64,000 nt of DNA from Gigantopelta aegis (lineage: Eukaryota; Mollusca; Gastropoda; Neomphalida; Peltospiridae), in assembly GCF_016097555.1 (NCBI RefSeq), contig NC_054704.1, positions 98,189,851 through 98,253,850 of the forward strand, given 5' to 3'. Under the pieces are notes generated by a model. It ran no database searches, was not told where the DNA came from, and worked only from the letters and a program-made list of their open reading frames with translations. Positions 1,337 to 63,728 of this stretch are shown one piece after another; the first letter of the stretch is position 1; each line of letters starts with the position of its first letter. The translations under genes and the position numbers were made by a program.

Positions 1337-1797
1337 TGTCAAGGCAGTCCTAGAGGAGTGGCAGTCATCCTACAGGCGGTGCAGGAAGGATGAAGTAATC
1401 TTATGCCATGCCTGCATCAGCCATACATATTTGACGCATTCATTTATTTCGAAGAACCCTCCTCCTCAGTGTGAACATTGTCAGTGTACACTGACTGTGC
1501 GCCACATTTTGGTAGTGTGATCATCTCAAGCCGACGAGAAATGAGGCAACAGAAATGTTTTGGAATCATTTAAATTACATCCAGAATTAATTGAAAATTT
1601 TTTAAACACTTTGACTTCTATACAAAGTTTTAAAATATACTTACCTTGATTTCATGTATTATATTATACTTTTCCCCTGTGGTTTTACATGACTATATAT
1701 AAATAATACTTCTATATACTTACCATTTGTGACACCCAATAGCCGATATGTATTATTGTGCTGGGGTGTCGTTAAACATTCATTCATTCATTCAAAT
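1337..1797 (+). mobile_element. I-group LINE, 3' fragment with tail
   Basis: From TGTCAAGGCAGTCCT onward it matches the end of ORF2 in the 44588 copy, including the C-terminal Cys/His motif (C-E-H-C-Q-C-T-L-T-V-R-H-I-L-V). The frame is lost just after this motif. The 3'UTR ends in the family hairpin (GACACCC at 1733-1739 paired with GGGTGTC) and (CATT)n. Unlike the 27575 and 44588 copies it keeps the full Cys/His region. It is severely 5'-truncated. Confidence 0.85.
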
Positions 1798-12560: not shown

Positions 12561-12694
12561 ACTTCTATATAAAGTTTTAAAATGTACTTACCTTGATTTT
12601 ATGTATTGTATTATACTTTTTTTACCACAGCTCCTTACACTGTGGTTTTACATGAATATATATAAATAATATTTCCATATACTTACCATTTGTG

Positions 12695-12734
12695 ACACCC
12701 AATAGCCGATATCTATTTTTGTGCTGGGGTGTCG
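12695..12734 (+). other. LINE 3' hairpin tail
   Basis: GACACCC and GGGTGTC form a 7-bp stem around an AATAGCCGAT-type loop, followed by GTTAAACAAA and CATT repeats. It is the presumed recognition structure for the LINE reverse transcriptase. Confidence 0.7.
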
Positions 12735-12769
12735 TTAAACAAACATTCATTCATTCATTCATTTTGATA

Positions 12770-14935
12770 ACGTCAGAGTGTTTAGCTGGTATAGAGAATT
12801 CAGATACAGGACGTAGTTTGGCCTTAACCTCGGTTATTGGAGAAAAAATGGTTGTCCGGTTACATAACGTTTTCTTGTGTTCGAAGTTTGTGACGGGACC
12901 AGTCATTATGGGTGTTGTGGAGGACTTGCCTGTTGAAAACATAGGAGTTTTGTTGGGTAATGATTTGACTAGTCAGTGTTGTCAGCCGTAATGTGACCAA
13001 TTGTTAATTAAAGACAGCCCTTTACCAATAGAAGAGAGTGAGGTTGATGAGATTAGATATCCTACATGTGTAAAGACTAGGGCTATGGCCAGAAGGGTAA
13101 CACGAGACCCAGAGGATATTTGTGATTTGTCTGATACGTATTGGAGTGGATGAGGTTATCAGTAAAATGGTAGATAAGTCAACTGAGGAACCAAATGTGG
13201 TGGAACCTGTTGATCTCCCGCAGAGGGGAAATGAACCAGTTGTGTTTGATAGAGGGGACTTACCTTATAATAGACAAGAGTTAGTTCTAGAGCAGGGGGC
13301 TGATCCAAATTTGTTGGTAGCTCGCACTACCTTGTTAACTGAAGGCGAGATGGAGGATCAGAGGTCAGGTTATGTGGACAAGGGAGTATTAATGAATAAG
13401 AGAGTTAGAGATAGGAAGGCTAGGAAGCAACTGAGCCATGCTCAGAGCAAACTAAAATCAGTGTTTGATAGGAAGACAAGGAGTCGGGAATTTAAACCAG
13501 GGGATAAAGTGCTGCTGTATCTTCCCATTAAACAGGGTTCATTACAGAACAGGTATTTCGGGCCCTATGTTGTGCACAAACGGGTTAATGAGACAGGGCA
13601 TGTGATAAACACTCCTGATAGGGTTAGGAAAAGTGGGTATTGTCACATCAATTTGCTAATAGGTTATTTTGACAGACTGCCGATAGTTCCAGTGTTACCT
13701 GTCCAAATTGAGTCACTCAATTTCCTGTGATGACGTCAAGACTGCAGAGATCAAATTAACCAAAATTTCCTGTGATGACGTCAAGACTGCAGAGATCAAA
13801 TTAACCAACAGCCAGATTCTAGTAGACTTGAGCCCCCAGCGTGCTAAGTTGACTACGTTGATACAAGACAATGTTTCCATTTGTCAGGACCTTCCAACGG
13901 TTACCAATACCTTAAGCCAGGATGTGCGCTTGGAACCCAACGCTACACCGATTCGACAGCATACCTGTCGGAGAAAACCTGGAAAACGTGCGACACTGAA
14001 AAAGAAAGAAACGAAGTTCCAGTGGTCAGGTGAATGCGAGAAGTCATTCAACCGTCTCAAGCAGATGCTCTCCTCGTCTCCCGTGATGGCAGCACCAGAC
14101 TACCGAATGCCTTTCAAGCTGGCTGTGGATGCCAGTGACGTAAGAGCTGGAGCTGTGCTGTTCCAAGAAGACGAAAATGGACTGGGCCATCCTGTAAGTT
14201 TCTTCTCCAAAAGGTTTGACAAACACCAGGTGAACTATTCCACTATAGAGAAGGATGTTTTGGCCATGGTACAAGCTCTGAAGCATTTTCAGATCTACGT
14301 GAAATCGGCAGCGCATCAAGTGGTTGTCTTTACGGACCATAATCCGCTTACTTTCATTCACAGAATATATATTAAAGCCACCAACCAGAGAGTTTTGAGA
14401 TGGAGTCTTCTTCTGCAGGAATTCCCAATTACCATTGAACATATCAAGGGCACTTCCAATGTAATCGCTGATGCCCTGTCCCGAAGTTGAACGTTGTAAT
14501 AATGTGTTGACGTTCTTGATTTCTGTTTTTGTTTTTATATTATATACCAGGGTCTCGGAGACTCAGTGTGATTACTGGTAGTCACCTTATTAGTATGTGT
14601 TATAAATGCCCGGATACGTCGGTTAACGCACATTTTGTTTTCTTTAAATGTAGTATATTTCCCTATTTTGAGGTGGGGGTGTGTGACGGTACATGCTCTT
14701 ATTTTTTTCAGAGGGCCGTGTGCGGCGTCGTTACGTAATACCCCTGCGCAATGGTGGTCGAGCTGTTCCCAATATGCACTTAAGCCCAGGTGGTCACCTT
14801 GTTACGTAATACTTCCGCGCGACCGTACCCCCCTAGTACACACCCAGACCAGGTGTGGAGGCCATGTGGCCAGTAGTTACGTAATACCTCCGCGAGTTCT
14901 GTTTTACGACCTTGTATTTCCTATGGAGAACGTGG
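12770..14935 (+). mobile_element. Ty3/Gypsy LTR-retrotransposon fossil with PR-INT-RT-RH order
   Basis: Recognisable parts in order are: a retropepsin-like region ending L-L-G-N-D-L (about 12800-12965); the Thr-Arg-Ala-Met-Ala linker; an integrase C-terminal region with F-K-P-G-D-K-V-L-L-Y and G-P-Y-V-V (about 13440-13650); the start of a reverse transcriptase (P-I-R-Q-H, about 13950); an RNase H with A-V-D-A-S-D, Y-S-T-I-E-K and ADALSRS (about 14010-14490); a purine-rich tract; and the start of the 3' LTR (TGTGACGG at 14682). Integrase before RT/RNase H is the Gmr1-type order, unusual for Gypsy. The element is broken, has lost large parts, and no 5' LTR is visible. Confidence 0.75.
14682..14935 (+). 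repeat. Partial 3' LTR of the Gypsy fossil
   Basis: It starts TGTGACGGTACATGCTCTTA right after a purine tract. It matches, in reverse, the right end of the solo LTR at 20980-22106, including GGAGGCCATGTGGC and the TTACGTAATA motifs. The match fades after about 14905. Confidence 0.75.
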
Positions 14936-25016: not shown

Positions 25017-26435
25017 GCGGAAAGTTTGTACGTCGATGCACACGAACCTAGTTTGGGTGCTAGACGTGCAAAGCTGTCTGCAGTATGCTACCAAGATAAA
25101 GTCAATGCCAAAACACCCCACCCATAACGCTATCTTTGACAACCGATTTATGAAGTTGTTTGATGCGAAGCCAAATGCAATCTGCACATTTGGTCTTCGT
25201 ATTAGGCAGCTTTTATCTGCTTCCAACATTGATCTTTCAGACATTTTGGAAACACCTTCATATTTTGTTTTGCCACCTTGGTGCATAAAACCACCTAAAA
25301 TTGTGTTGGATCTCGTGCATCTGAAGAAAGATCGCACGGATCCAATTATTTATAACCAATATTTTATGGAAATAAAAGAGAAATACTGTGACTACATCCC
25401 TATTTACACGGATGGGTCACGGGATGGGAATTCTGTGGCTTGTGCCACAGTTTTTCCATCAGACAAAATAATCTCTATGAGATTGCCTGATTTGGCATCT
25501 ATATTTAGTGCCGAAACTTGGGCAATTATTAAAGCCCTAGAGGAAATCAAAACCTCTAGCTCCTCTAAATTTATAATCTATACCGACTCACTTTCGTGTC
25601 TCCAGTCTTTACAATATATGAAGCTGGAACATCCCTTAAATGGGATGCTGATACTAAAGTGTGTCGTTTTATCTATTAACAATAAGAATATTGTGTTTTG
25701 TTGGGTACCCAGCCATGTTGGCATCAGAGGCAATGAAGAGGCAGATTGTGCTGCCAAGTCTGCTTTGACTTTGCCACGTGCCAATTCTGGTATTCCCTAT
25801 AGTGATCTCAAACATCACGTAAATAATTATATCTTTTCTACTTGGCAAGATGATTGGAACGGTGCGGTCGCGAAAAAGCTTCATTCTGTTAAGCCAGTCC
25901 TGAGAGAGTTGCAGTCCTCCTACAGGCGGTGCAGAAGGGATGAAATAGTCTTGTGTCGTGCTCGCATCGGACATACTTACATTACCCATTCATTTATTCT
26001 CAAGAAGGATCCTCCATCTCGGTGTGAGTATTGTCAGTGTACACTGACGGTGCACCATATTTTGGTGGAGTGTAATCATCTGATCCAGACTAGAAACGAT
26101 ATATTCGAAGCAAGGGATGTGGTGGAATCCTTTAGATTCCACCCTGAACTTGTACTAAAGTTTTTAAAAAAAACTGGATTTTATTCCAAATTTATATTTA
26201 CTTTTGTGTAATATTTGATTTGTAACATGAATTTTACCTTTATAACAAATGTGATATGTATTATTTTGTACAGCTCTTTACACTGTCTTTGACTTGACAT
26301 TTCAAATTTCATGTACCACCGCACAGCTCTATACACTGTTTTTAACCTAACCTTTTATTTTTACCATTGTATGACACCCAATAGCCGATGTATTATTTGT
26401 GCTGGGGTGTCGTTAAACATCCATTCAATTCAATT
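25017..26435 (+). mobile_element. LINE 3' copy of a second subfamily
   Basis: This copy is 5'-truncated within ORF2 at E-S-L-Y-V-D-A-H-E-P-S-L-G-A-R. It continues through RNase H and the Cys/His end to a stop at 26211, then a 3'UTR with two AGCTCT(T/A)TACACTGT blocks, the hairpin tail (26371-26412) and CCATTCAATTCAATTC. Its protein differs steadily from the 45302 protein, so it is a distinct subfamily with a different tail repeat. Confidence 0.88.
25036..26211 (+). CDS. LINE ORF2 C-terminal portion (RNase H plus Cys/His knuckle), open
   Basis: 391 codons are open without a stop, except for a local frame change at about 25070 relative to the full protein. RNase H residues are visible: Asp in YTDGSRDGN (about residue 124), Glu in FSAETWAIIK, Asp in Y-T-D-S-L-S-C-L, and H-V-G-I-R-G-N-E-E-A-D. 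The C-terminus holds R-C-E-Y-C-Q-C-T-L-T-V-H-H-I-L-V-E-C, a C-x2-C...H...C motif probably used for nucleic-acid binding. In full LINEs this follows endonuclease and RT, absent here, so it is a truncated relic with no independent function. Confidence 0.8.
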   Translation: MHTNLVWVLDVQSCLQYATKIKSMPKHPTHNAIFDNRFMKLFDAKPNAICTFGLRIRQLLSASNIDLSDILETPSYFVLPPWCIKPPKIVLDLVHLKKDRTDPIIYNQYFMEIKEKYCDYIPIYTDGSRDGNSVACATVFPSDKIISMRLPDLASIFSAETWAIIKALEEIKTSSSSKFIIYTDSLSCLQSLQYMKLEHPLNGMLILKCVVLSINNKNIVFCWVPSHVGIRGNEEADCAAKSALTLPRANSGIPYSDLKHHVNNYIFSTWQDDWNGAVAKKLHSVKPVLRELQSSYRRCRRDEIVLCRARIGHTYITHSFILKKDPPSRCEYCQCTLTVHHILVECNHLIQTRNDIFEARDVVESFRFHPELVLKFLKKTGFYSKFIFTFV

Positions 26436-27574: not shown

Positions 27575-29427
27575 CTCTAGGAAGCTTATGATACCACGTG
27601 GAAGTATGGGATTATCTCAAATTTCTTACAGAATAGGTCTTTCAAGGTACGAGTGGGATCTACGTTATCCGATTCTCACTCCCAAGACATGGGTGTGCCT
27701 CGAGGTAGCATCCTGTCAGTAACTTTATTTTCCGTGAAAATTAACAGCATCACCCAGTGTTTAAAACCTGGCGTTGATAGCTCGTTATATGTCGACGATT
27801 TTCAGATTTGCTACAGGTCGTCCAGTATGAGTATCATTGAACGTCAGTTGCAGCTTTGTTTGAATAAACTTCAACAATGGGCAAATGACAATGGATTTCC
27901 ATTCTCAAAGTCAAAAACAGTCTGTATGCATATCTGCCAGAAAAGAAGTCACCATTTAGATCCACAGCTTTTTCTGGATAAAACTCCGGTTCCAGTTGTG
28001 GAGATCAAATTTCTGGGGGGTATTTTTGACAGGAGGCTATCTTTTGTTCCTCATTTACACTAAACTTGATTATGGGAGCATTGTGTATGGGTCAGCACGT
28101 AAGTCTTACTTTCAAATGCTAGATCCTATACACAACCAGGGACTTAGGCTTTGTCCTGTGGAGAGCTTGTACGTCGATGCACACGAACCTAGTTTGGGTG
28201 CTAGACGTGCAAAGCTTTCTCTGCAGTATGTTAAAAAGATTAAATCAATGCCAAAACATCCTGCACACAATGCGGTGTTTGATAATAAATATATGAAGTT
28301 ATTTGATGCAAATGCGATTCGGACATTTGGTCTTCGCATTAAGCAGTTTTGATCAGTTTCCAACATTGATTTAACAGACATTTTGGAAACGCCTTCATAT
28401 TTTATTTTGCCACTTGGTGTATCAAACCACCAAAAATTGTATTTGATCTTGTGCATCTAAAAAAAGATCGCACAGATGCAGTTATTTATAAACAACATTT
28501 CATGGGAATCCAAGAGCGGTACTGTGGTTACATTCCAGTTTACAGAGACGGATCACGGGGTGGGAATTCTGTGGCTTGTGCTACAGTTTTTCCATCAGAC
28601 GCAATAATTTCCATGAGATTGTCCGATTCAGCATCAATCTTTACTGCTGAAATTTGGGCAATCATTAAAGCCCTGGAACAGATTAAGGATTCATATGCGT
28701 CCAAGTATATTTTTAAGACTCACTTTCGTGTCTTCAAGCTCTACAGTACATGAAATTGGAGCATCCCTTAGTTGGGATGGTGATACGAAAGTGTGTCTTT
28801 TTATCAATTGCCAATAAAGATGTTATATTTTGTTGGGTACCCAGCCATGTTGGCATTAGGGGTAAGGAAAAGGCAGATGTTGCTGCCAAGTCTGCTTTGA
28901 ACTTGCCCCGTGTCCATGTTGGTGTCCCCTACAGTAATTTTAAATTTCATATTAACCAATATATCTTTTCGACTTGGCAAGATGATTGGGACGGTGCGGT
29001 TGCGAATAAGCTTCATTCTGTCAAGGCTGTCTTATGCCGTGCCCGCATCGGCAATACATATTTGACGCATTCATTTATTTTAAAGAAGGACCCTCCTCAG
29101 TGTGAACACTGACTGTGCGGCAAATTTTGGTGGAGTGTGATCATTTCAAGGCGACAAGAAATTATATATTTGGCAACAGAAATGTTTTGGAATTGTTCAA
29201 ATTCCATCCAATGTTAATTGTAAAGTTTTTAAAACACTTTGACTTCTATAAAAAAAATTAAGATATAGTTAACTTGATTTTGTATATTGTATTATACTTT
29301 TCCCCCACAGCTCCTTACATTGTGGTTTACATGAGTGTATATAAATATGTTCATATACTTACATTTGTGACACCCAATAGCCGATATGTATTTTTGTGCT
29401 GGGGTGTCGTTAAACAAACATTCATTC
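27575..29427 (+). mobile_element. LINE copy, truncated in RT, same subfamily as 44588
   Basis: It begins at the RT motif AAGCTTATGATACCACGTGG. It has several internal deletions, runs through RNase H and ends in the hairpin tail (about 29369-29408). Like the 44588 copy it lacks 13 nt in the Cys/His region (TGTGAACACTGACTGTGCGG, 29099-29118), so the deletion is inherited, not private. Confidence 0.88.
27653..29112 (+). pseudogene. LINE ORF2 fragment (RT palm to RNase H), broken
   Basis: Blocks 27653-28063, 27996-28352, 28451-28753 and 28750-29112 carry GVPRGSILSVTLF, SLYVDDFQICY, the V-D-A-H-E-P-S-L-G region, Y-R-D-G-S-R-G-G-N (Thr to Arg next to the first RNase H Asp) and WVPSHVGIRGKEKADVAAKS. 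Frameshifts separate them, chiefly from a deletion between the PHLH region and K-L-D-Y-G and from a 3-nt-unmatched loss near 28710. Inactive. Confidence 0.82.
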
Positions 29428-29505
29428 TTCTGCACATCCGACGCCATATAACCATAAATAAAATGTGTTGAGTGCGTCGTTAAATAAAACATTTCCTTCC
29501 TTCTT
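29427..29505 (+). mobile_element. SINE-B tail-only fragment
   Basis: CGACGC (29439-29444) and GCGTCG (29474-29479) form a 6-bp stem, followed by TTAAATAAAACATTTCCTTC. No SINE body precedes it. Confidence 0.75.
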
Positions 29506-29812
29506 CTGCACATATATCACCACGGTAGTCGCATTTCTCCAGTAAGTAATGTTTGTATGTTAATTAATACAAACTGTTACATCAGTTTTGAACCGATTGT
29601 CTGCCAGCACGTTGTCTTAAATTGGGCTTCCGAGTGGTTAAGGTCGCTAGCTGTTATATGCCATGCGAATCGCAGTAGTTTCGAAACCTGCCAATTGACA
29701 CTTTGTGTTTTTAAATATACGTCTTTTTATCATGTTTTGCATGCGTAAATCGACAAATATGTGCAAGGTTCCACCTATGGATTTGGGGGATGGTGTGTGT
29801 TTTAGTTCACAT
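29506..29812. other. Anonymous stretch
   Basis: No gene or repeat end was recognised. Confidence 0.4.
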
Positions 29813-31972: not shown

Positions 31973-34911
31973 CTAAAGGGAAGCCAACTCTATTGCCATT
32001 GCCATGATGGATTCTTGAAACATTCTGCGACGATGCTTTCGTAAGAACATGCTAATGATTTCAGAAATGTCAATTTTCATAGAATGATGAATATGCATCA
32101 AGGCAAGTCCTGCTAGTCTGTCTTCTCCCATGGTATTTCGTAAGAAGGTTTTGACACGCCGTAGTGCAGAAAACGAAAGTTCTGCCGATGCACTGCCAAC
32201 AGGCATTACACAGGCAATGGCAAGCAATACTTTCACGTTGGGAAAGACTGCCTCGTTACATGCTCGGTATGACTGCAACAACGAATCTGGAACAGGATCT
32301 GTTGAACATTTCCTGTTTCTTGACCACTGCATCACTGATTCCTGGAAACTCATATTCGTAGAATCTGTTCAGGAGGATTCATTGCCAATAGATGTCCACA
32401 TCTTTTTCCAGCTACCTAGTTCTGATTTGAGGTTAAGTGGGGTTGGTAGGTCAGTTTTCCAGAACTGCAGATCTGTATGTAACAATTCTATGTCACTGGT
32501 TTTGACAATCAATTTGGGAATAAGGCCAAACAAATGACGACACTTACAGGCATCCTCTGAAAACCTACTTTCCATCTCTGTGATAAGGTGGTCTAAAAAG
32601 GGAATAGCTATCGAGTTCCTGAAGTATTGCTCTGTAGTGGAACTTGGAATGTTGTCACGATGTTGCTGAAATCTACCACCTACACGTGACATTGTGACAT
32701 ATCTACCTATGTCTTCGGAGAGTTTGAAAGCCTCACCGTACCAATCTTTGAATATGCCATCGATGTTGCTTCTATTCGATTTCAAGTCAGTAACCGACTG
32801 ACCAATGAGATTGTAGGCTTCATAGCAATCTAGATCACTGCACTGCAGAAGCTTCGCTATAGGCATGACAGACAGAAGACAACTTTTGATGGTCAAGAAT
32901 GCCATTATAAATGGGAATGACTTGATGGTTGTTAACAATCCCTGAGCTGTGGTTCTCGTGTTGGCATCCCATCCCACAACCAATTTTCTTCACCATATAT
33001 GTCAGGATATAGTGCAGGATTAACAATAGCATCCAGGCATGTCGTCAGTTCTGAGTACAGCTCATGGAATGTGTCGTAGCAACTGTGGCGTTCCACCCAT
33101 CTGGTTTTACATAAACCAAGAAGTTTCTTTTTGGTACTTTCACATTTTAGTTTAGCAAGTACCTGTTCAAAAAAACGTTGTCGTTTCGGAGAATTGTGAA
33201 ATAATAAGTATATTTCATTTAATGAACCTATCATGTTTCTAACAGGCGTCATCTTGCACGAAGCTGCGATCGAAAGGTTTAGAACGTGACTGTTACAATG
33301 TGTGTATAGAGCTTTCGGAGCAACATTTCGAATTCTCCCATTTACACCATTGACCTCACTAGACATGGCTGATGCACCATCATAAGCTTGCCCACGTAAG
33401 TTATCAATGTTTAGTTCGTTTGCCCGCAAAATATCAAGGATGCTTTCAGATATTGCTTTACCTGTGGTGCGTTTCAAAAACGAGTAATTGAAGAATGCTT
33501 CGATAATTTCAACATTATTTACGTCATTTGTTTGCAAAAATCTCAAACAAAGAGATAGGATTTCCTGATTGCCAAATGTGTCAGTAACCTCATCTGCCAT
33601 TATGGAAAAGAATGGACTAGGTGATCCAGCTTTAATGCCTAATGTTAGGTGGTGTCGAATAAAATCTCCGATAAGGACTACAATTTCATTTTGTATAGTT
33701 TTGCTGGTGTATTTCGATGTTTGTTTTCCTCTTTCTAGATGAGTGTGCAGAATTTTATCACTTTTCGCCATGAGATCAAGAGTTGCTAAGAAATTGCCAC
33801 GATTAGAAGCTGTACTACTACTGTCATCTCGATGTCCTCTAAGCGCAATATTCTGTTTTCCACAAAAAACAACTGCATCAACAATGCATTTCAAAATATG
33901 CAAGTTATCTTCAAACAGTTGTTTTCTTTTCCGGTCTAAGATACAATCCACCTGTTGTGAGGGTTTACTCGAATTCTGTTTGGCTATTTCTGCAGCAATC
34001 AGGGCATCTTTGTGGTAGTCAAGGCGCATATGGTTATCTAGAATACCATCTTTTGAGCCCTTGGCTTTTCTGAGGTTTGTAAATGCTTTATTTATTAAGA
34101 CACCAACACTTTTATTGCGGGGCGGAAACATAACACAGTACTTGCAGAGTCCGCCTTCTAATAAAGGACTGTACACTAACCATGTATACTCGTCCAGCCA
34201 CTGAGACCTAAAAACTAGTGTTTTTTCATCACCCCTTTGTCTTACAACTTGTGAACAAAATGTTTTATATCCCACCGGAGGCACAAAATGTTGTTCCATG
34301 TATTTGCACTTTTCATTATCACTAAAGTGACGGACATCAATTTTGTTTTTAACGATTTTTCCAAGGTCAAAGTAAGAATGATCATTGAAATCAGTAACAA
34401 CGGATCCATCATGCGTTGAAGCTGTGTCTCCTGATACAACGACTCCATCCTGAGTTGAAACTGTGTTACACATAGCAACGACTCCATCCTGAGTTGAAAC
34501 TGTGTTACCAGTAGCAATGACTCCACCCTGAGTTGAAGCTGTGTCTCCTGATACAACGACTCCATCCTGAGTTGAAACTGTGTTACACATAGCAACGACT
34601 CCATCCTGAGTTGAAACTGTGTTACCAGTAGCAAGGACTCCACCCTGAGTTGAAGCTGTGTTTCCTGATACAACGACTCCATCCTGAGTTGAAACTGTGT
34701 TACACATAGCAACGACTCCATCCTGAGTTGAAACTGTGTTACCAGTAGCAAGGACTCCACCCTGAGTTGAAACTGTGTTACACATAGCAACGACTCCATC
34801 CTGAGTTGAAACTGTGTTACCAGTAGCAACGACTCCATCCTGAGTTGAAACTGTGTTACCAGTAGCAATGACTCCATCCTGAGTTGAAACTGTGTTACCA
34901 GTGCAGGCCAA
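31973..34911 (-). pseudogene. hAT transposase (ZMYM1/TTF-DUF4371 type), two lesions
   Basis: Domains in order are: a 13-residue repeat array (residues ~4-172); a TTF-type zinc finger region with G-L-C-K-Y-C-V-M-F-P-P; a DUF4371 region with M-A-D-E-V-T-D (first catalytic Asp) and GQAYDGASAMS (second); T-H-C-N-S-H-V-L-N-L; CKTRWVERHSCYD; and a C-terminal dimerisation domain with VGSASAELSFSALRRVKTFL. The upstream 659-codon ORF (34911-32932) and the rest are offset by a frameshift at a doubled GGGAT near 32970. One in-frame TGA at 32369-32371 precedes the last 127 codons. The enzyme would bind the ends and catalyse excision in the nucleus. Domesticated relatives exist in animals, but here the terminal repeats show a transposon. 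Confidence 0.85.
34393..34899 (-). repeat. Coding minisatellite, 13 x 39 bp
   Basis: Thirteen in-frame units of G-N-T-V-S-T-Q-D-G-V-V-A-T type form the N-terminus of the hAT transposase. Variants recur every three units (G-G-V-L-A-T, D-G-V-V-A-M, D-G-V-V-V-S), so a 117-bp trimer was amplified. The unit length keeps the frame. A 263-codon antisense shadow frame also stays open across it. Confidence 0.9.
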
Positions 34912-35079
34912 ACTAAAACGTAATTAAAACAGAGTTTTATTATGTATGTAACCTTTACAGCTAATAAACACTGGGTGTAGGACATCCGCTGTTGCCGATT
35001 AGTCACGTGACCACTAACAATCAAAGTGTGCATGTATTATAACACTTTTATTTGTATATAACCAGTGGTTATTATATAA

Positions 35080-38148: not shown

Positions 38149-38297
38149 AGGGACATTCCTGAGTTTGCTGCAATGTTTTAAGATGTTATCGACTAATAAA
38201 ATATTTCCTCAATTAAACTTACATATTAAATATATTTTCTTGTTTAGAATATTAATGGTTGTATATTAAATGTGTTTCTGATCGTTCTAATAGTTTT
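38149..38297. mobile_element. TTAA MITE left half, cut by the satellite
   Basis: TTAA at 38145-38148, then family sequence up to CGTTCTAATAG. The satellite starts where the consensus would continue. Confidence 0.8.
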
Positions 38298-39540
38298 AGA
38301 AAGGTTGGCATTGTGAACTACCTGGCCATGTCATGTAGCTGTATTTATTTGTATTTGTTGCACCTTAAAACGTATAATGTGGTCATTGTTTTGTTAAAAT
38401 TGTCAGAATTAGAAAGGTTGGCATTGTGAACTACCTGGCCATGTCATGTAGCTGTATTTATTTGTATTTGTTGCACCTTAAAACGTATAATGTGGTCATT
38501 GTTTTGTTAAAATTGTCAGTATTAGAAAGGTTGGCATTGTGAACTACCTGGCCATGTCATGTAGCTGTATTTATTTCTATTTGTTGCACCTTAAAACGTA
38601 TAATGTGGTCATTGTTTTGTTAAAATTGTCAGAATTAGAAAGGTTGGCATTGTGAACTACCTGGCCATGTCATGTAGCTGTATTTATTTGTATTTGTTGC
38701 ACCTTAAAACGTATAATGTGGTCATTGTTTTGTTAAAATTGTCAGTATTAGAAAGGTTGGCATTGTGAACTACCTGGCCATGTCATGTAGCTGTATTTAT
38801 TTCTATTTGTTGCACCTTAAAACGTATAATGTGGTCATTGTTTTGTTAAAATTGTCAGAATTAGAAAGGTTGGCATTGTGAACTACCTGGCCATGTCATG
38901 TAGCTGTATTTATTTGTATTTGTTGCACCTTAAAACGTATAATGTGGTCATTGTTTTGTTAAAATTATCAGTATTAGAAAGGTTGGCATTGTGAACTACC
39001 TGGCCATGTCATGTAGCTGTATTTATTTGTATTTGTTGCACCTTAAAACGTATAATGTGGTCATTGTTTTGTTAAAATTGTCAGTATTAGAAAGGTTGGC
39101 ATTGTGAACTACCTGGCCATGCCATGTAGCTGTATTTATTTGTATTTGTTGCACCTTAAAACGTATAATGTGGTCATTGTTTTGTTAAAATTATCAGAAT
39201 TAGAAAGGTTGGCATTGTGAACTACCTGGCCATGTCATGTAGCTGTATTTATTTGTATTTGTTGCACCTTAAAACGTATAATGTGGTCATTGTTTTGTTA
39301 AAATTGTCAGTATTAGAAAGGTTGGCATTGTGAACTACCTGGCCATGTCATGTAGCTGTATTTATTTGTATTTGTTGCACCTTAAAACGTATAATGTGGT
39401 CATTGATTTGTTAAAATTGTCAGTATTAGAAAGGTTGGCATTGTGAACTACCTGGCCATGTCATGTAGCTGTATTTATTTGTATTTGTTGCACCTTAAAA
39501 CGTATAATGTGGTCATTGTTTTGTTAAAATTATCAGAATT
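38298..39540 (+). repeat. 113-bp satellite, exactly 11 units
   Basis: The unit starts AGAAAGGTTGGCATTGTGAA and contains CTACCTGGCCATGTCATGTA and GCACCTTAAAACGTATAATG. The spacing is 113 bp throughout (38298, 38411, 38524, 38637...). Units are almost identical. Alternating variants (TATTTG/CTATTT and CAGAATT/CAGTATT) in units 2-5 reveal duplication of a 226-bp dimer. It is non-coding, and no TA or RNA signal stands out. Confidence 0.95.
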
Positions 39541-39559
39541 AGAAAGTGAATAGAACAGG

Positions 39560-39775
39560 AAGGAAGGAAATATTTTATTTTAACGATGCACTCAACACAT
39601 TTTATTTACTGTTATATGGCGTCGGACATATGGTTAAGGACCACACACACATATACTGAGAGAGGAAATCCACTGTCGCCACTTCATGGGCTACTCTTTT
39701 CGATTAGCAGCAAGGGATCTTTTATATGCACAATCCCATAGACAGGATAGTACATACCAGGCGTGGTTCACTGAC
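39560..39775 (-). mobile_element. SINE-B, antisense, head missing
   Basis: It carries the tail GGAAGGAAATATTTTATTTT (reverse), TCGTTA..CGACGCC, body GTGGTCCTTAACCATATGTC and GATCCCTTGCTGCTAATCGA in sense orientation. It ends at GGTATGTACTATCCTGTC, lacking the tRNA-like part. Confidence 0.85.
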
Positions 39776-41020: not shown

Positions 41021-41098
41021 CATCCGACGCCATACAACCGTAAATAAAATTTGTTGAGTGCATCGTTAAATAAAACATATCCTATTCTTCCTTCCATC
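41021..41098 (+). mobile_element. SINE-B tail-only fragment
   Basis: CGACGC at 41025-41030 pairs imperfectly with GCATCG at 41059-41064, then TTAAATAAAACATATCC and a short CTTCC repeat. Confidence 0.7.
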
Positions 41099-44471: not shown

Positions 44472-44584
44472 AGATTAGTTAGTTTGTTTTGTTTAATGAC
44501 ACCACTAGAGCACATTGATTTATTAACCATCGGCTATTCGGTGTCAAACATTTGGTAATTTTGACATATTGTCTTACAGAGGAA
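44472..44584 (-). mobile_element. SINE-A 3' fragment, antisense
   Basis: In sense it reads GTTTGACACCGAATAGCCGA, then TAATAAATCAATGTGCTCTA, GTGGTGTCATTAAACAAAAC. The stem is GACACC/GGTGTC. It abuts the LINE 5'UTR. Confidence 0.8.
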
Positions 44585-44786
44585 ACGTGTACTGTAACCT
44601 CACCGTGGTGCAGGGGTGAAACATTCTCCTTGAGAATGGCTAATACAGTACAACTCCCCTTTTGGGGCGCCTTGTTTGCCGTGAGGTGCGACCCGTGAAA
44701 ATGGATGATGGGATCCTGGTGATTGAGTTGGGGCATACCTGCGGGTATGACTTCTGGCAATACATCACTTTGGCCCGGAGTTCAAA

Positions 44787-45312
44787 TAAACTGTCCTTCA
44801 CTGATGCCAGGAGGTTGGTGGAGACAGCAACACCTACAGTCGGTGACAAGTCATATGCAGCTGCAGCTGCTGCCAAAGTCGCCACTAAAAGTGTTGCGGT
44901 CAACACAGACCTCACTTGGCATTGTGATGAAGCCAAGTACAAGAAACTGTCTGATATTGAGAAGACGCAAAAACAGGTGCAAAAAGCAGCACAAAAACAA
45001 AAAATCACACCCCAGAAAAAGGAAATTGAAACTCAAGTGTCATTGGATTTTAAAAATCCACCAAATAGGTCGAGCACTAGTCTCCCTAAGACAGGCAATG
45101 ACACAAAGAAATCTCCAAAGAAAGCTACAGAAGTACTCTCTGGTAGGCTGAAAAAGATCGAATTACGTTCGGTCCCGATCAGCAATATGTATGATACTTT
45201 GGCTGATATCGGTGATGATGATATGGAGATTTCATCTCCAGATCATTGCCGATCACAAAGACCACCAGCAAAGCCAAAGATAAAACCCATACTTCCTCCC
45301 GATGGAAAATAA
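44787..45312 (+). pseudogene. LINE ORF1, C-terminal third
   Basis: It resumes at S-N-K-L-S-F-T-D-A-R-R-L-V-E-T-A, with an Ala run, a Lys/Gln-rich stretch and an acidic end (D-I-G-D-D-D-M-E-I). It terminates GATGGAAAATAA, overlapping the ORF2 ATG by 11 nt (45302-45312). The overlap occurs in both long copies, so ORF2 translation probably depends on ribosomes terminating on ORF1. An upstream ATG at 44701 keeps this frame open across the 5'UTR junction, so a short fusion peptide is possible. Confidence 0.75.
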
Positions 45313-48300
45313 AGTTATCCAGTGGAACTGTCGTGGGCTTAGGCCCAATTTTGATGAATTAAGTCTTCTAATTCAAAAGTATAATCCTCTTGCAGTGTGT
45401 CTTCAGGAAACTTTCCTGAAGGATACTGACAGTATTAACATCAGAGGATTTAATCTCTACCATAAATGTCAACAGAGTGAAAACAGAGCGTCTGGGGGCG
45501 TTTCCATTATTGTAAATGAAAACATTCCCCAGAGTGAAGTCATATTAAAGTCGACTTTACAAGCTGTGGCCGTAAAGGTCACGGCTCATAAAACTATTAC
45601 TCTCTGTTCAGTTTATTTACCCCCTCGAAACAATTACAATTTTAGCACTAGGGACTTTCAAGGTCTTCTTGATCAACTCCCTACTCCCTTTATTATCATG
45701 GGAGATTTTAATGCACACCACACTTTGTGGGGATGCGATGACATAAACACTAGAGGTAAACAATTAGAAGACTTAATTCTCAAAAATGACTTAATATTAC
45801 TTAATGATAAAAGTCATACATACTTTCATCCTGCAAGTGGTTCTTTCACATCCATTGATTTAACCCTTTGTAGTCCATCACTTTGTCTTGATTTCTCATG
45901 GAAAGTTTGTCCAGACCCTTGTGGTAGTGACCACTTTCCAGTTATTTTGGAGAATGATGGACCTCCATCACTTGAAAGAGTTCAGAGATGGAGGTTGACG
46001 GGGGCAAACTGGGATCAATTTCGGCATCTGTGCAGCACTCGACTGCAACAAACTGCCATGACTGGTGCCGATGATCCCATGTCTTTGTTCACCTCCATCT
46101 TGAAAGATATTGCAGAGGAAACTATTCCTAAGACTTCGGCAGTACCGAAGCGTTTCAATAAACCATGGTTCAATGAGACATGCAAAGATGCAATCAAAGA
46201 GCGAAACAGGACCCTCGAGAGGTTCAAACGCGAACCTACCGGGGATAACCTGAATAGTTATCGCATTGCTCGGGCAAAGGCTCGTAAAACTATCAGACAG
46301 AGTAAGAAATCATCTTGGAGAAATTATGTCTCCAAGTTGACTTCTCAAACATCTGTGAAATCTGTCTGGAATAGGATACGTAAAATCAAGGGAAAAGAAT
46401 CCAATAATACAGTTCGCCATTTGTCTGTCAATGACACGGATGTTACGTCTCATCGTGACATTGCCAATGCATTGGCAGACAGTTTCTCCCATAACTCCTC
46501 TTCTTCTTTCAGTACAGATGCTTTTACGTCTGTCAGAAATAGAGCTGAAAAGCAACCTATTAACTTTTCATCTGAAAATGTTGAAGTATACAACAGGCAC
46601 TTCTCTTTGGAGGAGTTGCAGGATGCTCTACGTAGAGCCCATGATACTTCGGTAGGACCAGATGAAATACATTATCAACTCTTAAAACACTTACCTGTAT
46701 CATCCTTAATGGTTCTATTAAATATCTTTAACAAAATCTGGACTTCGGGTGACTTTCCTTCTGATTGGAGAAAAGCCATTGTCATTCCTATTCCTAAGCC
46801 TGGTAAGGATCCAACAAATCCTACCAGTTATCGGCCTATTGCTTTGACAAGTTGCATTTGTAAAACCATGGAAAGAATGATCAACCGTAGACTTGTCTGG
46901 TATCTTGAGTCCCACAAATTGCTTACTAACGTGCAATGTGGGTTCAGGCCTAGACGTAGCACGGTCGATCATCTTGTTAGATTTGAAACGTTCTGTAGGG
47001 ATGCTTTTATCCATAACCAGCATTTGGTATCGGTCTTTTTTGACCTCGAGAAAGCTTATGATACCACGTGGAAGTATGGGATTTTGAAAGACCTCCATGG
47101 CATGGGCCTAAGAGGCCGTATGCCTGGCTTTATCTCAAATTTCTTACAGAATAGGTCTTTCAAGGTACGAGTGGGATCTACGTTATCCGATTCTCGCTCC
47201 CAAGAGATGGGTGTGCCTCAAGGTAGCATCCTGTCAGTAACTTTATTTTCCGTGAAAATTAACAGCATCATCCAGTGTTTAAAACCTGGCATTGATAGCT
47301 CGTTATATGTCGACGATTTTCAGATTTGCTACAGGTCGTCCAGTATGAGTATCATTGAACGTCAGTTGCAGCTTTGTTTGAATAAACTTCAACAATGGGC
47401 AACTGACAATGGATTTCGATTCTCAAAGTCAAAAACAGTCTGTATGCATATCTGCCAGAAAAGAGGTCACCATTTAGATCCACAGCTGTTTCTGGACAAA
47501 ACTCCGGTTCCAGTTGTGGAGGAGACCAAATTTCTGGGGGTTATTTTTGACAGGAGGCTATCTTTTGTTCCTCATTTACAGTATGTAAAAAAGAAGGGCT
47601 TAAAGGCCCTCAATATCTTAAAGGTTATTGGTAAGACTGAATGGGGAGCAGATCGAAAGGTTATGCTCCGACTTTATAGATCTTTAGTTCGGTCTAAACT
47701 TGATTATGGGTGCATTGTGTATGGGTCAGCACGTAAGTCTTACTTGCAAATGCTAGATCCTATACACAACCAGGGACTTAGGCTTTGTCTTGGTGCTTTC
47801 AAAACATCTCCTGTGGAGAGCTTGTACGTCGATGCACACGAACCTAGTTTGGGTGCTAGACGTGCAAAGCTTTCTCTGCAGTATGCTACAAAGATTAAAT
47901 CAATGCCAAAACATCCTGCACACAATGCGGTGTTTGATAATAAATATATGAAATTATTTGATGCGAAACCGAATGCGATTCGAACATTTGGTCTTCGCAT
48001 TAAGCAGTTTTTATCAGTTTCCAACATTGATTTAACAGACATTTTGGAAACGCCTTCATATTTTATTTTGCCACCTTGGTGTATCAAACCACCAAAAATT
48101 GTATTCGATCTTGTGCATCTAAAAAAAGATCGCACAGATGCAGTTATTTATAAACAACATTTCATGGAAATCCAAGAGCGGTACTGTGATTACATTCCTG
48201 TTTACACAGACGGATCACGGGATGGGAATTCGGTGGCTTGTGCTACAGTGTTTCCATCAGACACAATAATTTCCATGAGATTGCCCGATTCAGCATCAAT

Positions 48301-48832
48301 CTTTACTGCTGAAATTTGGGCAATCATTAAAGCCCTGGAACAGATTAAGGATTCATATGCATCCAAGTATATTATTTTTACAGACTCACTTTCGTGTCTT
48401 CAAGCTCTACAGTACATGAAATTGGAGCACCCCTTAGTTGGGATGGTGATACGAAAGTGTGTCTTTTTATCAATTGCCAATAAAGATGTTATACTTTGTT
48501 GGGTACCCAGCCATGTTGGCATTAGGGGTAACGAAAAGGCAGATGTTGCTGCCAAGTCTGCTTTGAACTTGCCCCGTGTCCATGTTGGTGTCCCCTACAG
48601 TGATTTTAAATTTCATATTAACCAATATATCTTTTCGACTTGGCAAGATGATTGGGACGGTGCGGTTGCGAATAAGCTTCATTCTGTCAAGGCAGTCCTG
48701 GGAGAGTGGCAGTCATCCTACAGGCGATGCAGGAAGGATGAAGTAGTCTTATGCCGTGCCCGCATCGGCCATACATATTTGACGCATTCATTTATTTTAA
48801 AGAAGGACCCTCCTCCTCAGTGTGAACACTGA
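45302..48832 (+). CDS. LINE ORF2 polyprotein: APE endonuclease, reverse transcriptase, RNase H
   Basis: 1176 codons are open from ATGGAAAATAAAG. The endonuclease spans ~1-216 with Asn9 (WNCRG), Glu36 (LQETF), Asp135/Asn137 (MGDFNAHH) and Ser-Asp-His 209-211. The RT spans ~440-740 with RPIALTS, QCGFRPRRSTVDHL, FFDLEKAYD (~578), GVPQGSILS and YVDDF (~668). A thumb/linker region follows. RNase H spans ~963-1085 with YTDGSRDGN, FTAEIWAI, FTDSLSCL and SHVGIRGNEKAD. It nicks DNA, copies LINE RNA by target-primed reverse transcription and may remove RNA. The last codons end Q-C-E-H-stop because 13 nt are missing, removing the C-terminal C-x2-C...H...C motif kept at 12405 and 26020. RNase H plus a CCHC ORF1 places it in the I group (I/Nimb-like); the clade is not certain. 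Confidence 0.93.
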   Translation: MENKVIQWNCRGLRPNFDELSLLIQKYNPLAVCLQETFLKDTDSINIRGFNLYHKCQQSENRASGGVSIIVNENIPQSEVILKSTLQAVAVKVTAHKTITLCSVYLPPRNNYNFSTRDFQGLLDQLPTPFIIMGDFNAHHTLWGCDDINTRGKQLEDLILKNDLILLNDKSHTYFHPASGSFTSIDLTLCSPSLCLDFSWKVCPDPCGSDHFPVILENDGPPSLERVQRWRLTGANWDQFRHLCSTRLQQTAMTGADDPMSLFTSILKDIAEETIPKTSAVPKRFNKPWFNETCKDAIKERNRTLERFKREPTGDNLNSYRIARAKARKTIRQSKKSSWRNYVSKLTSQTSVKSVWNRIRKIKGKESNNTVRHLSVNDTDVTSHRDIANALADSFSHNSSSSFSTDAFTSVRNRAEKQPINFSSENVEVYNRHFSLEELQDALRRAHDTSVGPDEIHYQLLKHLPVSSLMVLLNIFNKIWTSGDFPSDWRKAIVIPIPKPGKDPTNPTSYRPIALTSCICKTMERMINRRLVWYLESHKLLTNVQCGFRPRRSTVDHLVRFETFCRDAFIHNQHLVSVFFDLEKAYDTTWKYGILKDLHGMGLRGRMPGFISNFLQNRSFKVRVGSTLSDSRSQEMGVPQGSILSVTLFSVKINSIIQCLKPGIDSSLYVDDFQICYRSSSMSIIERQLQLCLNKLQQWATDNGFRFSKSKTVCMHICQKRGHHLDPQLFLDKTPVPVVEETKFLGVIFDRRLSFVPHLQYVKKKGLKALNILKVIGKTEWGADRKVMLRLYRSLVRSKLDYGCIVYGSARKSYLQMLDPIHNQGLRLCLGAFKTSPVESLYVDAHEPSLGARRAKLSLQYATKIKSMPKHPAHNAVFDNKYMKLFDAKPNAIRTFGLRIKQFLSVSNIDLTDILETPSYFILPPWCIKPPKIVFDLVHLKKDRTDAVIYKQHFMEIQERYCDYIPVYTDGSRDGNSVACATVFPSDTIISMRLPDSASIFTAEIWAIIKALEQIKDSYASKYIIFTDSLSCLQALQYMKLEHPLVGMVIRKCVFLSIANKDVILCWVPSHVGIRGNEKADVAAKSALNLPRVHVGVPYSDFKFHINQYIFSTWQDDWDGAVANKLHSVKAVLGEWQSSYRRCRKDEVVLCRARIGHTYLTHSFILKKDPPPQCEH

Positions 48833-49100
48833 CTGTGCGGCACATTTTGGTGGAGTGTGATCATCTCAAGCCGACAAGAAATGATATATTTGGCAACAGA
48901 AATGTTTTGGAATCATTTAAATTCCATCCAATGTTAATTGTAAAGTTTTTAAAACACTTTGACTTCTATACAAAATTTTAAGATATACTTAACTTGATTT
49001 TATATATTGTATTATACTTCCCCCCCCCCCCCCCCCACAGCTCCTTACACTGTGGTTTTACATGAGTGTATATAAATATGTTCATATACTTACCATTTGT

Positions 49101-49140
49101 GACACCCAATAGCCGATATGTATTTTTGTGCTGGGGTGTC
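49101..49140 (+). other. LINE 3' hairpin tail
   Basis: GACACCC (49101-49107) pairs with GGGTGTC (49134-49140), 26-nt loop beginning AATAGCCGATATG. GTTAAACAAA and CATT repeats follow. Confidence 0.75.
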
Positions 49141-49165
49141 GTTAAACAAACATTCAATCATTGCT

Positions 49166-51235: not shown

Positions 51236-51483
51236 CCCCTGCAGGGGTGTAACATTCTCTTTGAGAATGGCCAATACAGCACAAATTGAAGTTTAGAGTA
51301 AAAGTCAGTATCTTATCTGTGATATTTGTAATTTTGCACAGTTCTTTACACTGATTTTATTTATATCTTGAATTTTTCTGTTGATGTTGATCATCGCCTT
51401 GTTTGTTTCCATTACCATAGTTTGACATCCAATAGCCGATGTATTTTTCGTGCTGGGGTGTCGTTAAACATTCATTCATTCAT
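51236..51483 (+). mobile_element. Short LINE derivative, complete, 248 bp, 11-bp duplication
   Basis: It starts CCCCTGCAGGGGTGTAACAT, includes GAATGGCCAATACAGCACAA from the LINE 5'UTR, then 3'UTR, hairpin (GACATCC with GGGTGTC) and CATT repeats. A perfect duplication TATTTGAATAA flanks it (51225-51235, 51484-51494), proving mobility of this coding-free form. It sits inside ORF2 of the decayed LINE. Confidence 0.9.
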
Positions 51484-58449: not shown

Positions 58450-58521
58450 TTTACCATAGTTTGACACCCAATAGCCAATGTATTTTTCGTGCTGGGGTGT
58501 CGTTAAACATTCATTCATTCA
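58450..58521 (+). mobile_element. 72-bp insertion made of only the LINE 3' tail, 13-bp duplication
   Basis: The insert contains TTTACCATAG, the hairpin (GACACCC/GGGTGTC), GTTAAAC and CATT repeats. It is flanked by TTCAGATGCAGGT on both sides (58437-58449, 58522-58534). It is an extreme 5' truncation, probably of the short derivative, since its CCATAGTTTGACAC matches that subfamily. Confidence 0.9.
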
Positions 58522-60362: not shown

Positions 60363-60479
60363 GGCTTCTAGAATTTTATAAAATCCACTAGCCATGGGAT
60401 CAGTGATTTACATTTTTTACTAGCTACGTTTAAAAAAATCACTTGCCCTACCTTACTTTAAGTTAATACAATTGTACTA

Positions 60480-62461
60480 AACTGGCGACCAATAACTCTC
60501 CTAAATTGTACATATAAACTGGCTTCAGGTTGTATTGCAAATCGAATAAAAAAGGTTCTTGATAAAATAATAGACTCAGACCAAACAGGCTTTATTATTG
60601 GAAGGTACATTGGTGAAAACATTAGATTAATTTACGATATTATGCATTATACCGAAGAACAAGATATCCCTGGTTTACTATTATTAATCGATTTCGCAAA
60701 AGCTTTTGATTCAATATCTTGGTCATTTATCAATAAAGCCTTAGACATTTTTAACTTCAAAACATCAATGAAAGCCTGGATTAAAACACTACATAGTAAC
60801 TCGGTATCGAGAGTAATTCAGAATGGATTTCTTTTAGAGCCATTTAAACTAGAAAGGGTCTGTATACAAGGCGATCTTTTGTCTCCTTATATATTTATTT
60901 TATGTGCTGAAATCCTCGCTATCATAGTAAAAAAAACTCCAATAATATAAAAGGTATCACTATAGATGGTGAAAAATATTTAATATCGCAGTATGCAGAC
61001 GACACAAGTTTTATTTTAGACGGCTCTCCTGAGTCCCTGCAGGGTGTTCTATCTATCCTAGATTATTATTATGCACAAATATCTGGCCTAAAATTTAACT
61101 ACACCAAATCAAAAGCTATTTGGATAGGTAGCAAGAAATTTTCAAATGAAGTTTACCATCACACTCGATGGAAACTAGAATGGGGCAGTACACAGTTTAA
61201 CTTTCTCGGTATTAACTTTTCCATTAACCTAGAAGAAATTATTGATTTAAATTATAATCCCAAGATTATCGAAATACAAAAATTAATGAAGCTATGGTCT
61301 ATCAGAAAACTTACTGTTCTAGGAAGAATTACAGTCCTTAAAACGTTAATAGTTCCTAAACTAACACACCTACTGAAAACATTACCAAATCCAAGCGAAC
61401 GTTTGCTAAAACATATAAATACATTATTTTTCCAATTTATTTGGAATAGCGGCCGTGAACAACTTAAAAGAAACTTAATAACGCAAGACTATAAAAATGG
61501 TGGCATCAAAATGATAAACATAAATAATTTTATGACTGTTTTGAAAAGTTCGTGGATCCGACGGATATTTTTAAATAACTCAAAATGGACCATTTTGTTC
61601 GAAGCTTCTATAAATATATCAACACGTGATTTAATTATATATGGCGACCTTTTTCTATACTGTAAAAAAAAGGTCAATAAAAAATACATTTTGGAGAGAC
61701 ACATTGGTTAGTTGGTTAAGGATACAAGAAAAACAACTTCCAGTAAGCGTAGATGATATTCTCCAGATCAATATCTGGTTTAAGAGTAAAATATGTATAG
61801 ATAAAAAGCCATTTATACTAAAACGATATATCTCAAAAGGTATTATCTTTATTAACGATTTGTTGAATGAACAAGGAGACTTTCTAACATATGAACAGTT
61901 CATAGAGAAATACGACATAATTACCAATTTTCTGGAATATGCTTCATTGGTCAGTGCTATAAAATCATTCATTTACAACCTAGATAATTTAAATGATGAC
62001 GTTTTTATAGCATTACAAAATCCTGTTCTTCCATATAACTTAAAGGTTTTGTTCAAAGTTCAGAAAGGTTGCAAACATATATATATATATGATTTACTGA
62101 ACGCTCAAACCACCATTCCAAAATCACAAACAAAATATCTAAAGAAGGATATATCTATGATATATATGATTGGGAAAAATATTACATTCTACCCTTTAGA
62201 TCTGTCAAAAACACAACGTTATCTTGGTTTCAGTATAAAATCATACACAGAATTCTTACAACAAACAAATTTCTAAATATGATTAATTATATTGATTCCA
62301 CTGCCTGTAGATTTTGCAACAAATCACCTGAAATCATACAACACCTCTTATTTGAATGTAATGTAGTACATTCTCTGTGTGAAGCAATAGAAGAATGGAT
62401 AAGAAATGAAACTGGAATTAATATTACTCTAAGCAGAGATATAGTTGTTAGGCATGATTAA
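60480..62461 (+). pseudogene. Tx1/L1-group LINE ORF2 (RT and C-terminal zinc region), frameshifted
   Basis: From N-W-R-P-I-T-L-L-N-C-T-Y-K (about 60483) it continues DQTGFIIGRYIGENIRLI, LLLIDFAKAFDSISW (first Asp), LERVCIQGDLLSPYIF, then after a frameshift in an A8 run (60930-60937) SQYADDTSFIL (catalytic DD, about 60992). Further on are LTVLGRITVLKTLIVPKLTH, FFQFIWNS and N-G-G-I-K-M, typical of L1/Tx1 proteins. The last part, C-R-F-C-N-K-S-P-E-I-I-Q-H-L-L-F-E-C, is a zf-RVT-like motif (62310-62362). Frameshifts occur near 60937, 61280, 61660 and 62276. The endonuclease is absent. Inactive. Confidence 0.85.
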
Positions 62462-63048: not shown

Positions 63049-63130
63049 ATGTTTGACATCCAATAGCCGATGATTAATAAATCAATGAGCTCTAGTGGTA
63101 TCGTTAAACAAAAAAACTTTAACTTTTATA
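63049..63130 (+). mobile_element. SINE-A tail fragment
   Basis: GTTTGACATCCAATAGCCGA, TGATTAATAAATCAATGAGC, TCTAGTGGTATCGTTAAACA and AACTTTAACTTTT. Only the tail is present. Confidence 0.85.
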
Positions 63131-63420: not shown

Positions 63421-63728
63421 AAAATTAAAATTTGTTTTGTTTAACAACATCACTAGAGAACATTGATTTATTAATCATCGGCTATTGGATGTCAAACATA
63501 TGGTCATTTTTCACAGCCATAGAGAGGAAACCCGCTACATTTTTTCATTAGTAGCAAGGGATCTTTTATATGCACCATTCCACAAACAGGATAGCACATA
63601 CCATGGCCTTTGATATACTGGTGCACTGGCTGGAATGAGAAGTAGTTCAATGGGCCCATCGACGGAGATCGACCCTAGACCGACCGCGCATCAGGCGTGC
63701 GCTTTACCATTAGCCTACGTCCCGTCCC
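63421..63728 (-). mobile_element. SINE-A, full length, antisense
   Basis: In sense: the tRNA-like head GGGACGTAGGCTAATGGTAA (A-box region) and GGTCGGTCTAGGGTCGATCT (B-box-like); body CATTGAACTACTTCTCATTC, GTGCACCAGTATATCAAAGG, AGATCCCTTGCTACTAATG; tail GTTTGACATCCAATAGCCGA, ATTAATAAATCAATGTTCTC, TAGTGATGTTGTTAAACAAA. RNA polymerase III transcription and mobilisation by a LINE reading the shared tail are expected. It is the best SINE-A copy in the window. Confidence 0.9.

Follow-up and report, generated by a model that had tools for sequence, protein, structure and literature searches.

A homologous 3' hairpin ends an RNase H-bearing LINE and several SINEs of Gigantopelta aegis: a probable recognition element with at least two forms

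Described 3' hairpins and the Gigantopelta tails

In LINEs of the stringent type, the 3' end carries a hairpin that is typically bulged, UnaL2 and ZfL2 being the tested cases; the ZfL2 stem consists of an upper and a lower part, and the ORF2 protein binds through the linker between its endonuclease (EN) and reverse transcriptase (RT) domains (PMC4176376, PMC5135761). In monocots, the 3' hairpins of L1 elements and SINEs exhibit compensatory mutations in the stem, while the letters of the flanks and loop are conserved (Ohshima, PMC3747384). For SINEs that have conserved central domains, an exchange of modules, the tail among them, has been proposed (PMC6887750). Finally, the I-superfamily clades described from molluscs at large are Nimb and Ingi, together with an unknown one (PMC10294476).

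We analyzed a window of 64,000 nucleotides of Gigantopelta aegis (positions 98189851-98253850 of its contig, in a 1.149-Gb assembly of 5216 contigs), in which homologous hairpins are found at the 3' ends of LINE, SINE-A and SINE-B copies. Directly after the hairpin come GTTAAAYA and a short tandem repeat, (ATTC)n, (AATC)n, (TTCC)n or similar. This arrangement is like that of L2-clade pairs (eel UnaL2/UnaSINE1, zebrafish ZfL2-1 and ZfL2-2), where a hairpin with a bulge or internal loop also precedes short tandem repeats. As far as the cited accounts describe UnaL2 and ZfL2, the present LINE is unlike them in having an RNase H, and in its sequence, loop and terminal repeat. Moreover, the eel hairpin is common to LINE and SINE, whereas the Gigantopelta SINE tails are related but not identical to the LINE tail, and the near-identical tail that defines a shared-tail LINE/SINE pair was not found between them. 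As in the monocot L1/SINE case, LINE and SINE ends share a hairpin with compensatory stem changes, but that case concerns the plant L1 clade, and ours an animal clade of RNase H LINEs with ATTC-, TTCC- and AACTTT-type repeats. As described for the SINEs of PMC6887750, the same body occurs with different tails, the tails being here two forms of one homologous hairpin.

Considering the tested UnaL2 and ZfL2 hairpins, the compensatory changes of monocots and the proposed exchange of SINE tails, the Gigantopelta system is of a known kind. Our literature search met no account of these particular hairpins; its coverage of mollusc SINEs is incomplete, and we do not claim that they are undescribed. 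Possibly the SINEs correspond to mollusc families such as RUDI, MetaSINEs or the SINE 'jigsaw' of gastropods and bivalves. We propose, with a probability of about three in four, that the hairpin is the recognition element of a stringent-type clade of RNase H LINEs, that it exists in at least two forms, and that it has been swapped between SINE bodies.

A full-length LINE1 copy and the anatomy of the hairpin

LINE tails fall into two subfamilies, LINE1 and LINE2, and the window contains a full-length LINE1 copy (Table 1). Its ORF1-like frame had no match in Pfam. Its ORF2 encodes an endonuclease (PF14529/PF03372), a reverse transcriptase (PF00078) and an RNase H (PF00075), with 45 K/R and 32 D/E among the 281 residues of the EN-RT linker. 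RNase H is, beside the clade-level RT phylogeny, a mark of I-superfamily LINEs (Nimb or Ingi clade), among which this LINE may possibly be placed. As in stringent-type LINEs, a hairpin with a bulge and an internal loop lies near the 3' end, short tandem repeats are terminal, and EN and RT are both found in ORF2. In LINEs of that type, the end may also be poly(A). The hairpin reads GACACCC..GGGTGTC and is followed by GTTAAACAAACATTCA. Above its outer stem, AGC-CGA (49111-49116) pairs with TTG (49126-49128) and GCT (49130-49132), leaving a bulged U at 49129. The predicted fold has an energy of -15.7 kcal/mol (z -3.5), and the tail (49101-49148) matches the covariance model with 67.5 bits.

Table 1. 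Features of the LINE1 copy and hairpin tails in the window (positions counted from its first nucleotide).
Feature	Position	Strand	Remarks
LINE1 ORF1-like frame	44668..45309	+	open frame
LINE1 ORF2	45305..48832	+	1175 aa without stop; stop codon 48830-48832
LINE1 3' UTR	48833..49148	+	ends with hairpin, then GTTAAACA
LINE1 3' hairpin	49101..49140	+	outer stem 49101-49106/49135-49140
LINE1-type tail	1731..1778	+	covariance model match
LINE1-type tail	12694..12741	+	covariance model match
LINE2-like tail, divergent LINE copy	26373..26419	+	covariance model match
LINE1-type tail, second LINE copy	29369..29416	+	covariance model match
Hairpin-only B-tail insertion inside LINE 3' end	29438..29500	+	
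B tail within composite repeat	41026..41072	+	covariance model match
SINE-A tail	44490..44545	-	covariance model match, 77.6 bits
LINE2-type tail	51424..51470	+	upper stem CGA/UCG; covariance model match
LINE2-type tail, short insertion	58463..58509	+	duplication TTCAGATGCAGGT; covariance model match
SINE-A tail	63055..63110	+	3' arm partly decayed, GGTATC
SINE-A tail	63438..63493	-	covariance model match

The initial annotation had reported paired tail arms at 49101-49140, 29439-29479, 44495-44551 and 63049-63110. All are present, the 3' arm of the last being decayed. The B-type hairpin at 29439-29479 reads CGACGC..GCGTCG, then TTAAATAAAACATTTCCTTCC, and the insertion that carries it is flanked by a target-site duplication, TTCTTCTGCACAT, at 29425-29437 and 29501-29513. 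The divergent LINE copy retains an ORF2 fragment (25078-26031) that is 81% identical to LINE1.

Other repeats are found in the same window. An open frame at 32935-34923 (-) contains DUF4371 and a run of 13-aa repeats, seen in the DNA as a 39-bp repeat at 34320-34980; we take this frame to be probably a hAT-like transposase. A 113-bp tandem repeat lies at 38179-39608, and an RNase H frame of the LTR-retrotransposon type (RT_RNaseH) at 13687-14487. A second LINE-like RT, L1-like by eye, spans overlapping frames at 60462-62276, with RVT_1 in 60462-60947. The B tail of the composite repeat at 41026-41072 sits beside an inverted A-type tail; at least 675 nt of this repeat are common to a second copy (L024:1280), and the two are 94% alike.

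Copies were collected by searching the window and loci L002-L028 by BLAST with three consensus-like tails, so that divergent tails are under-represented in the sample. We detected 133 tail places (51 A, 44 B, 38 LINE-type), of which 5 A, 6 B and 18 LINE-type are in the window. A full enough tail was present in 116 of them (40 A, 43 B, 33 LINE-type). Removing eight tails of a tandem array in L023, and one A copy by the same filter, left a set of 107 copies, which were mapped on five templates. The array (L023:9417-10000) has a 72-bp unit with a LINE-type hairpin, present in 8.1 copies up to the locus edge, and is perhaps a satellite born from a LINE tail. The 200 kb taken at fixed positions contain 13 LINE-type tails, of which 8 sit in one tandem array, besides 44 A and 31 B tails; a very rough extrapolation to the genome gives 250,000 A, 180,000 B and 30,000-75,000 LINE-type tails.

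Consensuses of LINE (25 copies), A (40 copies) and B (43 copies) tails have the same fold. The outer stem is GACACC/GGUGUC in LINE, GACAUC/GGUGUC in A and GACGC/GCGUC in B; in the A2 variant (3 copies in the sample), it is GACGUC/GGCGUC. An internal loop separates it from an upper stem of general form A(G/A)C-CG / UG-U-G(C/U)U, the two halves of which flank a bulged U: AGC-CGA/UUG-U-GCU in LINE1, AGC-CGA/UCG-U-GCU in LINE2, AGC-CG/UG-U-GCU in A and AAC-CGU/AUG-U-GUU in B. Folded separately, the consensuses form the same bulged-U upper stem atop an outer stem, with z-scores of -3.5 (LINE1), -4.5 (LINE2), -2.9 (A), -2.6 (A2) and -3.5 (B). In the lowest-energy folds of A and A2, outer pairs 5-6 are displaced by a bulge, and only for A does the centroid have the six-pair outer stem. 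A loop of 25-35 nt had been annotated between the arms; these are 28 (LINE1), 36 (A) and 29 nt (B) apart, but the interval contains the second, bulged stem rather than an open loop. The GTTAAAY-type motif with a tandem repeat, annotated downstream of the hairpin, was recovered: GTTAAAYAW occurs 103 times in the window and L002-L028, 60 times after GTC, versus 37 times in the reversed sequences, at most once after GTC.

Compensatory changes and common descent

The tails are homologous in primary sequence: all families have GACAYCCAATAGCCGAT and GACGCCATATAACCG in common, and the SINE tails additionally share ACCAWATGTYTGAC, upstream. Between LINE and SINE tails, the loop, the internal loop and the terminal repeat differ, and the core is common. 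Common ancestry alone may be considered, with one ancestral tail whose stems hardly vary, and paired double changes that arose by chance among few masters. That homology reaches beyond the hairpin is in line with it, and so is the invariance of 6 of the 12 stem pairs across the five family consensuses. In these consensuses, 57 of 60 stem cells pair, compared to 13-33 of 60 when the partners are slid; the broken pairs are outer 6 in B and upper 6 in A and A2. Three pairs (outer 4, upper 2, and upper 6, unpaired in A) are altered on both sides between families. Against common ancestry alone, all three of these both-varying pairs show a compensatory swap, versus 22 of 129 background pairs (Fisher p 0.006).

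Inside families, copies decay independently, as expected of dead insertions, and no covariation is visible in the 107-copy set. Under a phylogeny-aware null modelled on R-scape, akin to the check that the initial annotation had called for, no stem pair was significant among the 903 column pairs of the 107 copies. E was about 22-26 at outer pair 4 and 51-56 at upper pair 2, and the top-scoring pairs were family markers outside the stem. This may be explained by the small number of independent lineages, but it is also a point in favour of common ancestry alone. In a 14-row alignment of LINE and A tails, one pair (outer 4) had a double change, a level reached by 161 of 500 shuffles, and 96.8% of cells pair versus 96.2% in shuffles. 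To say that the stems covary, as first annotated, was therefore too strong. The accompanying statement that primary sequence differs while pairing is kept holds for compensatory change in up to three master-level pairs, the sequences themselves being homologous.

We next turn to a held-out comparison, in which a covariance model was built from LINE and A tails, SINE-B being left out. With E up to 5, it recovered 28 of the 37 B copies, including 16 with E up to 0.01. A model using sequence alone reported two B copies, both partial, and a control with a false structure, its partners slid by two columns, recovered 24 of 37 at E up to 5 (one of which was missed by the true model) and 3 at E up to 0.01. 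For each of the 23 B copies that the two structured models have in common, the score was higher with the true pairing. The mean gain was 4.4 bits over the 17 B copies compared, and about 7 bits for consensus-like copies, which scored 28.3 bits (E 1.3e-4) versus 21.0 bits (E 0.023). LINE and A copies scored alike in the two models (top scores 82.9 and 82.4 bits). Since the false structure finds nearly as many B copies, the contribution of the true pairing to their recovery is modest, which again suits common ancestry alone.

Exact copies of the 54-mer of the A tail were then counted genome-wide, with variation allowed at outer pair 4 alone. We found 1227 A-U, 17 G-U, 22 A-C and 10 G-C copies, where 0.3-0.7 G-C copies are expected under independence (odds ratio 33, Fisher p 1.4e-10). 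The paired double is thus 15-30 times above expectation, and an unpaired double, in which outer 4 is G and the nucleotide facing outer 2 is C, served as a partial control and was found in 1 copy. From these counts, the A family seemingly had two kinds of master, both paired; the G-C copies probably reflect one linked double change inherited by copies, and not many events. At upper pair 2, the paired double AAC/GUU was present in 8 exact copies on four contigs. These may represent no excess, given that the G-U single is common in the sample (4 of 36 A copies). The excess at outer pair 4, together with the swaps between families, makes common ancestry alone unlikely in our eyes.

Decay of CpG in an inverted repeat GACGYC/GGCGTC could also mimic covariation, deamination of each arm turning G-C into A-U. 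Indeed, outer pair 4 lies in a CpG on both arms in B and A2, and in CpA/TpG in A and the LINEs. Such decay of single copies, however, predicts singles at the product rate, as opposed to the excess over both singles observed for the two intact pairs, G-C and A-U. Moreover, no CpG is involved at upper pairs 2 and 6, and both sides of pair 6 changed by transversion, so that we regard this explanation as very improbable. With compensatory changes both between families and at outer pair 4 within A, a conserved RNA hairpin at the ends of the LINE and of several SINEs, as initially annotated, is borne out.

LINE partners, SINE bodies and exchange of tails

LINE1 ends are 95-100% identical at 40 scored places of the genome (the best 40 of 1848 candidates). 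Open frames of 1236 aa contain 9 of the 150 RT matches listed, and two of these 9 have a listed LINE1 end about 2.3 kb downstream. A query with the RT of L022 listed 150 matches, 6 of which were fetched: 3 have a LINE-type tail, and 3 have no tail within the fetched stretch. At L043, one of these loci, the element has its own LINE-type tail, plus a B tail about 340 nt beyond, preceded by SINE-B sequence. With the RNase H of L021 as query (150 matches listed, 12 fetched, L029 being the query's own place), none of the 12 loci had a coding-strand tail in the roughly 1.5 kb covered downstream, and 3' ends may lie further on. For RVT_1 (150 matches listed), none of the 3 loci fetched had the hairpin in the stretch covered. 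Overall, the hairpin was absent from the fetched stretches, perhaps short of the 3' ends, of the second RNase H family (12 loci), of two other LINE families with RNase H and of a further RT family. In this limited sample of 6 relatives, 12 RNase H-family loci and 3 further RT families, we found no LINE ending in the A form or in the B form, the CGACGC/GCGTCG tail included, and four exact-match scans gave no match in viral contigs. The annotated association of one LINE family with its SINEs is therefore retained only in part: wherever a close relative of the LINE has a legible tail, this tail is of the LINE form, and the forms that the SINEs carry were met in no LINE of the limited sample.

The SINE consensuses comprise two bodies and two kinds of tail, each tail occurring with two bodies. 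The SINE-A body is 97.5% identical over 201 nt to the short SINE-B body. Long SINE-B, compared with A2 over 390 nt including the tail, shows 88% identity. As the same bodies occur with A and B tails, we conclude that tails are swappable cassettes that were exchanged. A tRNA-like head was detected by ARAGORN in one of the four SINE consensuses. A scan with no shuffled control found perfect target-site duplications of 12-14 nt in 8 of the 40 B copies; they lie 243-322 nt upstream of the hairpin, which is where the SINE 5' end is expected.

Some B insertions consist of the hairpin only (about 60 nt), at 29438-29500 of the window, L011:1846 (-), L018:3132 and L012:9715 (-). The first three start 2-3 nt before the hairpin and have duplications of 12-17 nt, one mismatch being allowed; for the fourth, the duplication was seen by eye only. 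Among 25 B copies with a candidate duplication, no start lies in the interval of 4-158 nt upstream. Judged by how far homology reaches, 4 of 34 B copies stop no more than 3 nt from the hairpin (two are the same composite repeat), and the next ends are at 22, 40, 48, and 104 or more nt; A tails showed no peak of homology ends at the hairpin. Hairpin-only B insertions, few in number, could possibly reflect a hot spot of 5' truncation or a minimal element. As they have target-site duplications, the cassette alone may be enough for insertion.

How these tails would be used can be outlined by analogy. The hairpin would be the 3' recognition element of a clade of LINEs with RNase H and an APE endonuclease. 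We infer that the RT binds it: as in stringent-type LINEs, the ORF2 protein would bind this 3'-terminal hairpin of the RNA and start target-primed reverse transcription in the short repeat that adjoins it on the 3' side. The common contact surface would consist of the GAC/GUC base of the outer stem, the A-U and C-G pairs of the upper stem with the C-G step above, the bulged U and GTTAAAYA. Divergence is found at outer pair 4, at upper pairs 2 and 6, in the apical loop and in the terminal repeat. SINEs would have captured at least two forms of the cassette, A and B, and then switched tails.

Two possibilities may be considered for the A and B forms: either their LINE lineages are extinct or outside our sample, or the RT of LINE1 tolerates several forms. 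A tolerant RT of a single specificity, by which LINE1/LINE2 itself moves SINE-A and SINE-B, would fit with the invariant core, bulged U and GTTAAAYA common to all, with the similar lengths of target-site duplications, and with LINE1 and its close relatives being the only LINEs found with the hairpin in our limited sample. It agrees less well with the loops and terminal repeats, which differ among LINE, A and B, and with the age of the SINEs. The mean divergence of BLAST matches (not whole copies) from the consensus is 16.8% for A (56 matches) and 11.9% for short B (35), versus the 95-100% identity of the best 40 LINE1 ends, and A and B thus look older than LINE1; for long B, it is 9.4% (13 matches, median 3.8%), and for A2 19.0% (9 matches, median 24.1%). 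We hold such tolerance to be possible, but rather doubtful. Under the recognition hairpin with swapped forms that we favour, A and B would stem from separate LINE lineages within the one clade, either extinct or outside our sample. The suggestion of more than one RT specificity, made in the initial annotation, is in this respect plausible, given that the same SINE bodies have two tails and that terminal repeats differ. A further step, at this stage speculative, would be that the LINE clade split into several RT-hairpin specificities coevolving by compensatory change, and that SINE bodies outlive a LINE lineage by swapping hairpins.

One genome thus brings together natural variants of a recognition hairpin, compensatory changes, matched SINE bodies with different tails and open LINE copies. 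With this material, the divergence of RT-hairpin specificity and the change of host by SINEs would be testable by defined swaps.
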